A DNA stretch of 45,881 nucleotides from Bacteroidales bacterium (GTDB lineage Bacteria > Bacteroidota > Bacteroidia > Bacteroidales > UBA12170), in assembly GCA_027858955.1 (NCBI GenBank), contig JAQIBR010000240.1, forward strand, positions 1 through 45,881. Direction: 5' to 3'. Shown in pieces: positions 32,003 through 36,713 of the stretch. Positions within the stretch are counted from its first letter, which is position 1, and every line of letters starts with the position of its first letter. A program made the position numbers and the translations under genes. The notes beneath the pieces are model-generated. The model saw only the letters and a list, made by a program, of their open reading frames with translations. It had not been told where the DNA came from and ran no database searches.

Positions 32003-33259
32003 TTACTTCCAAACTTCAACTTTCACTCCAAGTTTTTTCAAATCATCAAAAAAATGTGGATAGGATTTTTTAACACTTTCAGCATCAATAATTTGTATCG
32101 ATTTTTTTGCCGTCAAGCCTAAAACTGCCGCCATCATTGCCATTCTATGATCATGGAAAGAAGAAACAGTTCCTCCGTTGGATTGAACACCTTCAATCAT
32201 CATTTCATCTTCTTCAAAATCAATCATTAATCCCAACTTTTTAAATATATCCTGAATCGCTTCAGCCCTATTACTTTCTTTATGGATTAAACGATGAACT
32301 CCTTTAATTCGACTTACTCCATTACAAGCAGCAGCTAATGCAGCCAAAGGCGGAAATAAATCAGGCGTTTCGGTAGCATCGTAAATAAAAGGTTTTAATT
32401 CTTTTTTTTCAACAAAAATTGAATTTTCTTTCTGCACAATATTTGCTCCTACCTGTTTTAATACTTCCACTATTCTTTTGTCTCCCTGCAAAGAGTCTCT
32501 TCTCAAATTATCTATTTGCACTGAACCGTTTATAGCAGAAGCGACCAAAATAAAAGCAGCACCGCTCCAATCTCCTTCAACCAAATATTTATCAGCATTA
32601 TATTGTTGATTCCCATTAATCTGGAATCGAGAAAAATCTTTATGTTCGATCTTAATTCCAAAATCATTTAAAAGGTTGATTGTCATATCGATATACGGCT
32701 TGCTTTTTAGATTTTTTACCAATAATTCACTACTTTTGCTTACTTTTGGTAAAGCCATAAGCATACCACTAAGTAGCTGAGAACCTTCACTTGCATCAAA
32801 AATAATTTGACCACCTTTCAGATGACCTTGAATTTTGATGGGTGCAAAACCATTAGTGGTTTGGCAATTAACTCCATTTGATTTTAAAACGTTTTCAATT
32901 AGATGCATTGGTCTTTTCTGCAAAGTCCCTTTTGCATTAATAATAAAATTCTGATCATATAATGCTAAAATGGGTGAAAATAACCGAATCCCCAGTCCTG
33001 ATTCGCCAATGTTTAAATGAGATTTTCTTGGATTTTGATTCGGAATTATATGCAAACGGCTACCCTGTATTTGAATAGTTGCGCCTAAGTTTTTCACCAA
33101 TCCCAATGCCGCATCTGCATCTGCACTTGCTGAATAGCCATCAATTTGAACTTGTTTTTCAGATAGAAATGCAGCGGCAATAGCTCTTTGCAACATACTT
33201 TTTGATGCGGGAGCTTGAAGCTCGCCAAAAATTTTTGATGGAAAAACTTCAATATGCAT
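32003..33259 (-). CDS. aroA: 3-phosphoshikimate 1-carboxyvinyltransferase (EPSP synthase)
   Basis: This 418-residue enzyme joins shikimate-3-phosphate and PEP. Signs: the N-terminal ASKSMLQRAIAAA (catalytic Lys20), GESGLGIRLFSPILA, GSQLLSGMLMAL, the ATETPDLFPPLAALAA segment with the catalytic aspartate, HKESNRAEAI and SFHDHRMAMMAA. The substitutions (SMLQRA for the usual SISNRA) are of the Bacteroidota type. Last gene of the aromatic operon, 4 bp after the DAHP synthase gene. Confidence 0.93.
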   Translation of the reverse strand: MHIEVFPSKIFGELQAPASKSMLQRAIAAAFLSEKQVQIDGYSASADADAALGLVKNLGATIQIQGSRLHIIPNQNPRKSHLNIGESGLGIRLFSPILALYDQNFIINAKGTLQKRPMHLIENVLKSNGVNCQTTNGFAPIKIQGHLKGGQIIFDASEGSQLLSGMLMALPKVSKSSELLVKNLKSKPYIDMTINLLNDFGIKIEHKDFSRFQINGNQQYNADKYLVEGDWSGAAFILVASAINGSVQIDNLRRDSLQGDKRIVEVLKQVGANIVQKENSIFVEKKELKPFIYDATETPDLFPPLAALAAACNGVSRIKGVHRLIHKESNRAEAIQDIFKKLGLMIDFEEDEMMIEGVQSNGGTVSSFHDHRMAMMAAVLGLTAKKSIQIIDAESVKKSYPHFFDDLKKLGVKVEVWK

Positions 33260-33263
33260 AGTT

Positions 33264-34358
33264 CTATTCTATTGCTTTGTTAATTATATCAGTTTGATTA
33301 TTTATGCTTTCCTGATGAATTGCTTTAAAAATTTTAGAGATTAAATCTGGACTAAGACCTTTGGCATTTCCTAAAGTAATACTCTGTTCGATTACCTCAT
33401 TCCATCGATTATTTTGCAAAACAACCATATTATTATCACGTTTAAATTCTCCTATTTCACAAGCAACTTTCATGCGAGCCTCCAATATTTCCATTAATTC
33501 ATGGTCGAAATAATCAATTTTTTTCCTTAAACCAGAAAGGCGAGAATGTTTTTGCTGTGTTTCTCCTTTTGAACGAATTTTTAAACCACGAATTAATTCT
33601 TCAAATTGGCCTGGGTTGATCTGCTGCGATGAATCGCTCCATGCATCATCAGGATTAGGGTGCACTTCTATCATCAATCCGTCAAAATCCAAGTCCATCG
33701 CTTTTTGTGACAATTCTTTAATTAAACTGCGTTTTCCACCTATATGACTTGGATCATTAATTATTAACAATTCCGGAAATCGTCGTTTTAATTCAATAGG
33801 AATCTGCCAATTAGGAGCATTTCTGAAAGCAGAATCACCATAACTGCTAAAACCACGGTGAATAGCAGCAAGTTTAGTAATTCCCGATTTATTAAAACGC
33901 TCTAAAGCTCCAATCCACAATTCTAAATCAGGGTTGATTGGATTTTTTACAAATACGGGAATATCTACACCTTTTAATGCATCTGCAATTTCCTGAACGG
34001 CAAATGGGTTAACCGTTGTTCTAGCACCGATCCAAAGTACATCAATATTATGTTTTAAAGCCTCGTAGACATGTTTAGCATTGGCAACCTCCGTAGCAAC
34101 TTTAAGTCCGGTTTCTTCCTTAACTCGGCTTAACCATTTAAGACCATCTGAACCAACACCTTCAAAAGTATTAGGACGAGTTCTTGGTTTCCATATTCCA
34201 GCTCTAAACACAGAGATATTTTGACTTGCTAGTGCATGGGCAGTTTCAAGTACCTGAGCTTCTGTTTCGGCACTACAAGGTCCTGATATTAAAAAAGGTC
34301 GGTCTAGATTATCTAATCCCCATTCACTTAATGGTTTGAGTTTTAATTTCGTTTTCAT
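33264..34358 (-). CDS. Bifunctional DAHP synthase / chorismate mutase
   Basis: Residues 1-262 are a type I-beta (KDO8P-like) DAHP synthase: GPCSAE (26-31, metal Cys28), WKPRTRPNTFEG, ATEVANAKH, GARTTVNPF and NDPSHIGGKR. Residues 270-355 are an AroQ chorismate mutase: SRLSGLRKKIDYFDHELMEIL with Arg278, Arg295 and Lys306 as active-site basics. The protein thus starts the shikimate pathway and commits chorismate to prephenate. C-terminal mutase fusions of this kind often give feedback control by prephenate or aromatic amino acids. It lies 22 bp after tyrA. Confidence 0.93.
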   Translation of the reverse strand: MKTKLKLKPLSEWGLDNLDRPFLISGPCSAETEAQVLETAHALASQNISVFRAGIWKPRTRPNTFEGVGSDGLKWLSRVKEETGLKVATEVANAKHVYEALKHNIDVLWIGARTTVNPFAVQEIADALKGVDIPVFVKNPINPDLELWIGALERFNKSGITKLAAIHRGFSSYGDSAFRNAPNWQIPIELKRRFPELLIINDPSHIGGKRSLIKELSQKAMDLDFDGLMIEVHPNPDDAWSDSSQQINPGQFEELIRGLKIRSKGETQQKHSRLSGLRKKIDYFDHELMEILEARMKVACEIGEFKRDNNMVVLQNNRWNEVIEQSITLGNAKGLSPDLISKIFKAIHQESINNQTDIINKAIE

Positions 34359-34380: not shown

Positions 34381-35229
34381 TTATATTGATTGATTTATTA
34401 TTTTATAAATGGCATTCGATTTCTCCATCAATTGATTTAATCCTTCTTTATTTTCGTTTTGTATATGTTCTTTAAAAAGCTCAAGATTTGAAATATAAAG
34501 CTTCAAAGCCTCTAACATATTGTCTTTGTTTTGCAGGAATATTGGATTCCACATATCAGCAGAACTACCTGCTAATCTAACTGTTGATTCAAAACCGCCA
34601 CCGGCAAGATTATAAATATTACGCTCTTTATCTTCTACATTATAAGCTGTAAGCGCCAATGAGAAAGACAAAATATGCGAAAGATGCGAAAGATATGCCA
34701 AATCCTTGTCATGCTCCACAGCATCCATATATATCAATTTCATATTTAATGACTTAAACAAAAGCTTAACCAAATTTAATGGCATACGAGCATTCTTTTC
34801 AGGATTGCAGATAATAGCTACTTTATTTGTAAAAAGCTCTTCAAAAGAAACTGCCGGTCCGGAATTTTCTATACCTGCCATTGGATGGGCAGCAACAAAA
34901 TTTTGTCCGTTTGGATGTTTTGCCGCTAAGTCTACTATTTCTTTTTTTGTAGAACCCATATCAACAACTACTTGTTCTTCAAGTTGATCCAAAAGAGAAG
35001 GCATAAGTTCCAATATACCATCAACCGGAGTTGCCAAAATAATAATATCGGCATCTTTGGCACCGTCCAATACTTCTGAGGAATTATCAATAAGTTTCTT
35101 TTCCAAACAATAAGACAAATTTTCCGCTGCATTGTCGTAGCCGATTATTTCATCAGCAAAACCACTTTTTCTCAAGCATTTAGCTAAAGAGCCTCCAATT
35201 AATCCTAATCCAATAATAAATACCTTCAT
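34381..35229 (-). CDS. tyrA: Prephenate dehydrogenase
   Basis: This 282-residue NAD(P)-dependent enzyme turns prephenate into 4-hydroxyphenylpyruvate. The dinucleotide motif is GLGLIGGSLA (7-16); the active-site part is FVAAHPMAGIENSGP with His115, and a HDKDLAYLSHLSHIL helix follows in the dimer domain. There is no ACT domain, so tyrosine feedback at the protein level is not expected, which leaves transcription as the likely control point. It follows the aminotransferase by 9 bp. Confidence 0.92.
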   Translation of the reverse strand: MKVFIIGLGLIGGSLAKCLRKSGFADEIIGYDNAAENLSYCLEKKLIDNSSEVLDGAKDADIIILATPVDGILELMPSLLDQLEEQVVVDMGSTKKEIVDLAAKHPNGQNFVAAHPMAGIENSGPAVSFEELFTNKVAIICNPEKNARMPLNLVKLLFKSLNMKLIYMDAVEHDKDLAYLSHLSHILSFSLALTAYNVEDKERNIYNLAGGGFESTVRLAGSSADMWNPIFLQNKDNMLEALKLYISNLELFKEHIQNENKEGLNQLMEKSNAIYKIINQSI

Positions 35230-35238
35230 GTTCTATAA

Positions 35239-36402
35239 TTATTTAATGATTCTATTTAATGCTTCATTTAAAATTGCTTTATCATTTGCCAAAGATATTC
35301 GAATATAACGTTCTCCATTTTTTCCAAATATAAAACCGGGAGTAATAAACACTTTCTTATTTTGAAGAATATCTTCGCTAAATTCCATTGATGATTTAGC
35401 TTCTTGTGGAATTTTGGCCCAAATAAACATTCCTGAGGACTCATTATCAAAGTCACACTTCAATGTTCGTACTATTTCTTTTCCTATTTCCCTTCTAACT
35501 GTATATACCTCACGTTGAGTTTTATACCAATCTGCTGTATTTTGAAGTGCTATAGTTGCAGCCAATTGTATTGGCTTAAACATACCTGAGTCCATATTTG
35601 ACTTAACCTTTAAAATAGCTTGAATAAAATGTGAATTTGCACCTATCATTCCAACTCTCCATCCCGCCATATTATGCGATTTGCTTAAAGAATTCAATTC
35701 AATAGTAATTTCTTTTGAACCATTAACTGATAAGATACTCAATGGTTTATCAGTGCTAATTAAGCTATATGGATTATCGTTTACAATCAGAATTCGATGT
35801 TTTTTACAAAATGTAATCAACTGCTCAAAAAGTTTTTTTGATGCAGATTTGCCAGTTGGCATATTTGGATAATTAACCCACATAAGCTTAACATTACTTA
35901 AATCCATTTTTTCGAGTTGATTAAAATCGGGGCACCATTTATCGGATTCTTTTAAATCATATACAACGGCTTTCGCTTCGCAGAGTGATGCTACGGCTTT
36001 ATATGCGGGATATCCAGGATCAGGAACTAAAACCTCATCGCCGGGATTTAAAAAAGCTAAAGAAATATGCATTATTCCTTCTTTTGATCCCAATAAGGGT
36101 AAAATTTCAGTTTCAGGATTTAGTTCAACTTGATAAAAATCCTTATACCAGTTAGAAAAAGCTTCTCTCAACTCAGGAATTCCAGTATAACTTTGATAAC
36201 CATGATTAACCGGGTCATTAGCAGTTTGTATCAATTCATTAATAGTATTTGCCGATGGAGCCAGATCAGGATTCCCAATCCCCAAATTGATTACAGAATG
36301 GCCATTGGCATTCATTTTGCGGATTTCTGCCAGTTTTGTTGAAAAGTAATATTCATTAACAGTTTGAATCCTATTCGCCGGTTGAATTAATATTGAACTC
36401 AT
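35239..36402 (-). CDS. PLP-dependent class I/II aminotransferase (aromatic operon)
   Basis: This 387-residue fold-type I aminotransferase has INLGIGNPDLAPS, the GYQSYTGIPELREAF segment, DPGYPAYK, NYPNMPTGK and the PLP lysine in SLSKSHNMAGWRVGM (Lys241). It is closest to the LL-diaminopimelate / aspartate-aromatic aminotransferases. As first gene of an operon with tyrA and chorismate mutase it most likely transaminates 4-hydroxyphenylpyruvate (and phenylpyruvate) to the amino acid. The start lies 23 bases beyond the second attenuator's T-tract. Confidence 0.88.
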   Translation of the reverse strand: MSSILIQPANRIQTVNEYYFSTKLAEIRKMNANGHSVINLGIGNPDLAPSANTINELIQTANDPVNHGYQSYTGIPELREAFSNWYKDFYQVELNPETEILPLLGSKEGIMHISLAFLNPGDEVLVPDPGYPAYKAVASLCEAKAVVYDLKESDKWCPDFNQLEKMDLSNVKLMWVNYPNMPTGKSASKKLFEQLITFCKKHRILIVNDNPYSLISTDKPLSILSVNGSKEITIELNSLSKSHNMAGWRVGMIGANSHFIQAILKVKSNMDSGMFKPIQLAATIALQNTADWYKTQREVYTVRREIGKEIVRTLKCDFDNESSGMFIWAKIPQEAKSSMEFSEDILQNKKVFITPGFIFGKNGERYIRISLANDKAILNEALNRIIK

Positions 36403-36424: not shown

Positions 36425-36452
36425 AAAAAAAAAGTCCTACGTGTGCAGAACT
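36425..36452 (-). terminator. Attenuator 2: intrinsic terminator before the aromatic operon
   Basis: On the minus strand AGTTCTGC-ACAC-GTAGGACT (36433-36452) forms an 8-bp stem with two G-U pairs, followed by T9. A competing antiterminator pairs GGACT..AAGC (36474-36484, starting inside the stop codon of leader peptide 2) with GCTTaAGTTC (36448-36457), which uses up the terminator's 5' arm. Confidence 0.85.
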
Positions 36453-36483
36453 TAAGCTATATTTAAACATAATGCTTTTAGTC

Positions 36484-36543
36484 CTATTGGTAAAACAGGT
36501 AATAATAATTCCAAAAATAATAGTTACTACATTTTATCATCAT
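36484..36543 (-). CDS. Leader peptide 2 of the aromatic operon (Tyr/Phe-rich, 19 aa)
   Basis: The peptide MMIKCSNYYFWNYYYLFYQ has six Tyr, two Phe and one Trp in 19 residues and begins with ATG ATG. The stop codon TAG ends at 36484, where the antiterminator's 5' strand begins. A ribosome finishing the peptide would cover that strand and let the terminator form; a ribosome stalled at Tyr or Phe codons would leave it free. It starts 14 bases after terminator 1's T-tract. Confidence 0.85.
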   Translation of the reverse strand: MMIKCSNYYFWNYYYLFYQ

Positions 36544-36556
36544 ATTTTTTTTGCAT

Positions 36557-36584
36557 AAAAAAAGCCCCAAATTACTTTAGGACT
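36557..36584 (-). terminator. Attenuator 1: intrinsic terminator between the two leader peptides
   Basis: On the minus strand AGTCCTAAA-GTAA-TTTGGGGCT (36563-36584) forms a 9-bp stem (two G-U pairs) with a GTAA tetraloop, followed by a run of six T. A competing antiterminator pairs AGGATTGCTTT (36611-36621, directly after the leader 1 stop codon) with AAAGGAGTCCT (36579-36589): 10 pairs and one G-G mismatch. Confidence 0.85.
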
Positions 36585-36621
36585 CCTTTATATTAGTTTA
36601 TATAATACACAAAGCAATCCT

Positions 36622-36675
36622 TTATAGCATAAAATACCAATAATAAGAATAACGATATGTATAAGTTTTCATCAT
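36622..36675 (-). CDS. Leader peptide 1 of the aromatic operon (Tyr-rich, 17 aa)
   Basis: The peptide MMKTYTYRYSYYWYFML has six Tyr, one Trp and one Phe in 17 residues, again starting ATG ATG. Its stop codon TAA touches the 5' strand of antiterminator 1. The -7 box ends only 8 bases before the first ATG, so the mRNA should have almost no untranslated 5' end. Such composition by chance is very unlikely, and it matches the tyrosine-directed enzymes downstream. Confidence 0.88.
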   Translation of the reverse strand: MMKTYTYRYSYYWYFML

Positions 36676-36683
36676 TTATATTG

Positions 36684-36713
36684 CAAATGTAGAATTGTTT
36701 TTGAAACCGGCAA
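36684..36713 (-). promoter_or_regulatory. Promoter of the aromatic (tyrosine) operon
   Basis: On the minus strand TTG (36711-36713), 19 bases, then TACATTTG (36684-36691), a full match to the Bacteroidota primary-sigma consensus. Transcription should start at about 36677-36680, just before leader peptide 1. It is back to back with the LOG-gene promoter at 36752-36781. Confidence 0.8.

Follow-up and report, generated by a model that had tools for sequence, protein, structure and literature searches.

Leader-peptide attenuation is a textbook mechanism that is usually told as one unit per operon, the classical examples being the E. coli trp, his, and pheA attenuators. The best-known members, E. 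coli trp among them, also carry a protector hairpin; in E. coli it makes untranslated leaders terminate, but it is not definitional for the class. For tandem or serial attenuators, our searches of the open-access literature turned up mgtCBR, tandem riboswitches, and otherwise just cases that were unrelated or synthetic. The leader of the Salmonella mgtCBR mRNA contains two successive ORFs that both affect elongation; the two respond to different signals (ATP and proline), their effects are additive, and the tandem is unlike intrinsic terminators (PMC3641672). In B. thuringiensis, measurements on a triple c-di-GMP riboswitch, whose serial units share one ligand, showed a more stringent and more digital response (PMC4759541), and two synthetic attenuators placed in series improved dynamic range (PMC3753616). 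In flavobacteria, structured 5' elements that belong to no Rfam family lie upstream of pheA and hisG, and leader-peptide attenuation is suspected ahead of amino-acid operons; tandem units and Tyr-specific leaders are not among what the available sections of that report describe (PMC9723704). Our searches of the open-access literature found no report of Tyr codons in leader peptides, nor one of serial leader-peptide attenuators that share a signal, although an earlier description of the latter is possible.

The window analyzed here, the whole 45,881-nucleotide stretch of a Bacteroidales genome, contains on its minus strand two short Tyr-rich ORFs downstream of a single Bacteroidetes-type promoter, as seen by direct reading (Table 1). 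The promoter is followed by ORF 1, antiterminator 1/terminator 1, a short spacer, ORF 2, and antiterminator 2/terminator 2, and the aminotransferase gene starts 22 nt 3' of the second T run. Tyr accounts for 6 of 17 residues in the first peptide and 6 of 19 in the second. The 5' strand of antiterminator 1 (36621-36616) lies directly 3' of the ORF 1 stop codon, while the stop codon of ORF 2 itself forms the first nucleotides of the corresponding strand in unit 2. In both units the 3' strand of the antiterminator is the 5' arm of the terminator, and the two hairpins are therefore mutually exclusive. Reading and folding thus bear out the peptides, T tracts, and exclusive hairpins described in the initial annotation, as well as its placement of each stop codon against the antiterminator. 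The ATG-ATG start that it gave to both units is conserved in unit 1 (6/7 species of the genus) and not in unit 2 (2/7). Its order of enzymes was right for the aminotransferase and TyrA, whereas the third gene, given as chorismate mutase, encodes a DAHP synthase-chorismate mutase fusion and is followed by aroA.

Table 1. Features of the leader region and the operon behind it, in window coordinates.
Feature	Position	Strand	Details
Promoter	36684..36713	-	TTG 36713-36711, 19-nt spacer, TACATTTG 36691-36684; Bacteroidetes-type TTG / TAnnTTTG
Leader peptide ORF 1	36675-36622	-	MMKTYTYRYSYYWYFML; 6 Tyr, 1 Phe, 1 Trp
Antiterminator 1	36621-36579	-	-14.1 kcal/mol; equalled in 1/200 shuffles
Intrinsic terminator 1	36557..36589	-	-14.2 kcal/mol; T7 ends 36557
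Leader peptide ORF 2	36543-36484	-	MMIKCSNYYFWNYYYLFYQ; 6 Tyr, 2 Phe, 1 Trp
Antiterminator 2	36486-36446	-	-10.0 kcal/mol (folding)
Intrinsic terminator 2	36425..36453	-	Stem 36453-36432, T run to 36425; -9.5 kcal/mol
Class I/II aminotransferase, first operon gene	35239..36402	-	Pfam PF00155 1.2e-60; substrate-neutral family assignment
tyrA, prephenate dehydrogenase	34381..35229	-	NF006307 above its cut-off
DAHP synthase fused to chorismate mutase	33264..34358	-	PF00793 + PF01817
aroA, EPSP synthase	32003..33259	-	TIGR01356 above its cut-off

Like the classical attenuators, both units combine a short ORF enriched in end-product codons with an antiterminator that competes with an intrinsic terminator, the position of the ribosome presumably deciding between them. 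They differ in that the codons are dominated by Tyr, two units stand in series, and a strong protector hairpin is missing. Each unit qualifies as a leader-peptide attenuator on all the defining features that sequence analysis can address. No covariance model of a known Rfam leader or T-box matched the leader at its gathering score, Phe_leader (RF01859) reaching 17.5 bits against a cut-off of 55. Separately, a SAM riboswitch (72.8 bits) is present in the locus of one relative (L083, 3217-3316, minus strand). The distance from the TAnnTTTG box to the first ATG is 8 nt in the window and 7-8 nt in all seven species of the genus, compared with about 20-29 nt in most other leaders. Because the first ATG lies just 8 nt past the box, the mRNA from which the window's leader peptide is translated may be almost leaderless.

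Both units are present in 7/7 species of the clade with an aminotransferase-first operon, all from the same genus, in which the aminotransferases of the other six species are 71-82% identical to that of the window. All of them have an ORF 1 of 17 codons, and the core of ORF 2 is likewise conserved. Across these species, pairing holds in 97% of cells for terminator 1 and in 98.6% for terminator 2, while the pairs of antiterminator 1 are kept in 88% of cells, with both sides changed in 5, and the tested outer pairs of antiterminator 2 in 100%. The peptides and hairpins, whose lack of conservation in close relatives the initial annotation had named as a refutation, are thus both conserved. Two sister species that retain pheA inside the operon also have two units each. 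Most hairpin changes within the genus are one-sided, so that maintenance is shown more than covariation; taken alone, covariation inside the genus is weak, since the terminators changed mostly on one side. Since compensatory changes there were too few, an order-wide test in which hairpin arms were swapped between genomes was used instead.

A unit was called wherever a short ORF with 5 or more Tyr/Phe in a stretch of 12 codons stood ahead of an intrinsic terminator. This detector finds two units in the zone of the window, while dinucleotide shuffles of the same zone gave one unit in 2/500 cases and two units in 0/500. Shuffled zones of relatives gave any unit in 0/796, and the reverse strands gave one unit in 5/199. 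The double unit of the window is not a product of chance, and the results are independent of the detector's threshold, with 34, 34, and 33 doubles at 4, 5, and 6 Tyr/Phe, respectively.

The arm-swap test covered 205 units. The upstream strand pairs with the 5' arm of its own terminator at a median of -16.0 kcal/mol, compared with -10.5 kcal/mol for arms exchanged with those of other genomes (p 4e-35), and the complementarity is thus genome-specific. From the last Tyr/Phe codon to the start of the antiterminator strand the median distance is 10 nt (IQR 8-12), a spacing that fits the footprint of a stalled ribosome, quoted as 12-15 nt from the P site (PMC3641672). A ribosome stalled on the control codons would just leave the antiterminator strand free, while a ribosome that had reached the stop codon would mask it. 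When the footprint was kept unpaired in constrained folding, the in silico probability of the antiterminator was 0.75 with a stalled ribosome, 0.00 with a ribosome at the stop codon, and 0.63 with no ribosome; in the same order, the window's units gave 0.80/0.12/0.80 (unit 1) and 0.68/0.00/0.60 (unit 2). A protector or pause hairpin between the ORF and the antiterminator strand was sought and not found, the ORF:strand pairing being -8.3 kcal/mol vs. -8.0 kcal/mol in shuffles. As this pairing is not strong, untranslated leaders may read through.

A conserved GGGA..TTTGTATG-like stretch recurs 3' of the 5' strand of the antiterminator, at 36620-36605 in the window and in the same place in many relatives, and within it TG[TC][AG]T occurs in 50% of cases vs. 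10% in shuffles. We take this stretch to resemble the consensus elemental pause of E. coli polymerase, and it is possibly a polymerase pause site. A pause here would synchronize polymerase and ribosome, and a model holds such synchronization to be essential for sensitive attenuation (PMC1183508).

What the leaders sense can be judged from the genes that follow them. In most genomes pheA heads the operon, with the leader ahead of it, whereas in the window's clade pheA is located elsewhere. The median Tyr/(Tyr+Phe) is 0.42 for leaders with pheA in the operon (n=141) and 0.63 for those without (n=34; p=1.6e-14), and counted by family the values are 0.44 (37) and 0.67 (14; p=2e-6). In the other species of the clade, the relocated pheA has its own single leader that is Phe-rich and nearly Tyr-free (e.g., MYFDFVFGFLFCFPKS and MITVNTIRFFFYFKMEA), while the doubles of the two sister species whose operon still includes pheA are of mixed Phe/Tyr content. 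Trp-rich leaders lie upstream of trpE and His-rich leaders upstream of hisG. Together these patterns are strong comparative evidence that the leader ORFs serve as amino-acid sensors.

Some individual loci deserve mention. The Phe-rich attenuator of the relocated pheA is seen at six sister loci, and the window genome's relocated pheA (L114, G000:C148) shows neither a leader nor a terminator within 520 nt upstream, where repeat-like sequence is found. In four species of the genus (L124-L127), hisG is preceded by one His-rich leader (MYLSQLHHHHFHTGPQASRK and relatives) with a terminator after it; hisG itself was not found in the window genome.

The trpL peptide of Sinorhizobium reportedly acts in trans, and the YYYL core of unit 2 is well conserved across the seven species, as might be expected if the peptides or the terminated leader RNAs acted in trans here as well and attenuation were secondary. 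Such a role would need neither the tie between codon content and operon gene content that is seen across families nor the constraint on ORF-to-antiterminator spacing, and we regard it as highly improbable.

That leaves the relationship between the two units, which cis-acting attenuation could use in more than one way. Each window peptide contains one Trp codon and 1-2 Phe codons, and the Trp of unit 1 is conserved in 7/7 species of the genus, features that would suit units reading different amino acids (e.g., Tyr vs. Phe/Trp) with OR/AND logic as in Salmonella mgtCBR. This arrangement is distinctly unlikely, however, given that in 34 distinct tandem pairs the Tyr shares of units 1 and 2 are correlated (Spearman 0.71) and do not differ systematically (Wilcoxon p=0.52), and that in genome G050 both units are Phe-free. 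The same pairs give no support to the earlier idea that different Phe content tunes each unit. The units could also belong to separate transcripts from two promoters and not act in series at all. A promoter of the TTG/TAnnTTTG type stands ahead of 126/176 first units and, within <=60 nt upstream of the start, ahead of 0/36 second units, with 7/1050 in shuffles; the chance TATTTTTG within ORF 2 of the window does invite such a reading, but it has no TTG at the correct distance, and two promoters are accordingly extremely improbable.

With no promoter of its own for the second unit and an equal Tyr:Phe bias in both, the two units would therefore read the same signal, serially, on one RNA, and both appear to lie on one transcript. 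The locus is very probably two complete ribosome-mediated transcription attenuators in series that respond to the same signal, which would be charged tRNA-Tyr, with Phe and perhaps Trp also contributing to some extent; the initial annotation's proposal of two tandem Tyr-responsive attenuators is thus the best reading. It draws on the observed anatomy, conservation, genome-specific complementarity, dependence of codons on gene content, and absence of a second promoter, from which we infer the response in vivo and the multiplicative effect. With ample tyrosine, the ribosome would reach the ORF 1 stop codon and cover the antiterminator strand, terminator 1 would end transcription, and any polymerases escaping it would face the same test again at unit 2. 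When tyrosine is scarce, the ribosome would stall on Tyr codons upstream of the strand, both antiterminators would form, and the operon would be transcribed. Because the same test is met twice in series, read-through should be roughly the product of two probabilities, giving less leak, a steeper response, and added logarithmic gain. Riboswitches repeated for one ligand and synthetic attenuators in series behave in this way. In layout this resembles mgtCBR, with two serial leader ORFs on one transcript (judged by the one promoter); it differs in that the same amino acid would be read by both, as their equal codon bias indicates, and a hairpin and T run end both units. The likeness to serial riboswitches lies in the repetition of complete sensor-plus-terminator units for one signal, although here the sensor would be a ribosome translating a leader ORF and there it is an aptamer.

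To place the window among its relatives, the same aminotransferase gene and its upstream DNA were examined in an evenly drawn sample of the order, with enough upstream DNA in 127 genomes (124 from the draw and three more of the window's genus). The detector found one Phe/Tyr attenuator unit ahead of the operon in 88 of these, two in 31, and none in 8, so that about a quarter of the sampled relatives have the doubled arrangement. Doubles occur in 16 of 49 families, as well as in the trp operon of sister species, and doubling is not peculiar to the operon of the window. In the trp operon, two Trp-rich units (MNINNWWLLDL, then MTISAKYWWRYSGIQT) with a terminator each stand in series about 300 nt upstream of trpE in two members of the window's genus (L122 and L123; G009 and G003), and a further double is found at L250 (G016); most relatives, the window genome included, have one unit there.

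Changes between one and two units number at least 8 on a PheA tree, with a best count of 11, figures that are approximate because the tree was made with FastTree. In family f61, one relative retains the homologue of unit 1 alone and another that of unit 2 alone; the extra unit is the upstream one in f23, and the single unit corresponds to unit 1 in f117, f63, and f79. From these patterns, each unit behaves as a module that can be gained or lost at either end. Recent internal duplication was rejected as a general origin, similarity between units exceeding the between-family 95th percentile in only 9/36 pairs; some pairs may have arisen in this way, and the sequences of the window's clade give no sign of it. 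A single unit is enough for most relatives, and the second is therefore not essential. The number of changes and the lone homologues in f61 are indeed what a near-neutral extra unit would produce, one unit sufficing and others often coming and going. We nevertheless consider this unlikely, as both units were kept throughout the seven-species clade and in both of the pheA-containing sisters, with hairpins intact in all seven species.

If the second unit is kept for its effect on two same-signal attenuators in series, the effect may concern leak. A polymerase without a following ribosome would read through the first unit, and a second, independently translated unit would square that leak, an argument that is attractive because these leaders have no protector hairpin. 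Doubling as a general leak-proofing device for Bacteroidales attenuators is a tentative proposal, somewhat short of an even chance, and if true it would explain the repeated origin of doubles of equal specificity, also in trp. Same-signal serial attenuators that are recurrently gained and lost look like an arrangement that has not been described. The Tyr-specific leaders, together with the matching Phe-specific leader that accompanies the split of the operon, make a clean case of codons following gene content. Because a single bacterial order has the same operon in nature with either one unit or two, and has switched between these states repeatedly, the benefit of serial attenuation, in leak and in steepness, is directly testable. 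Taken across the order, the distribution of these leaders suggests that the doubled arrangement may be a recurring way of tightening control over amino-acid synthesis.
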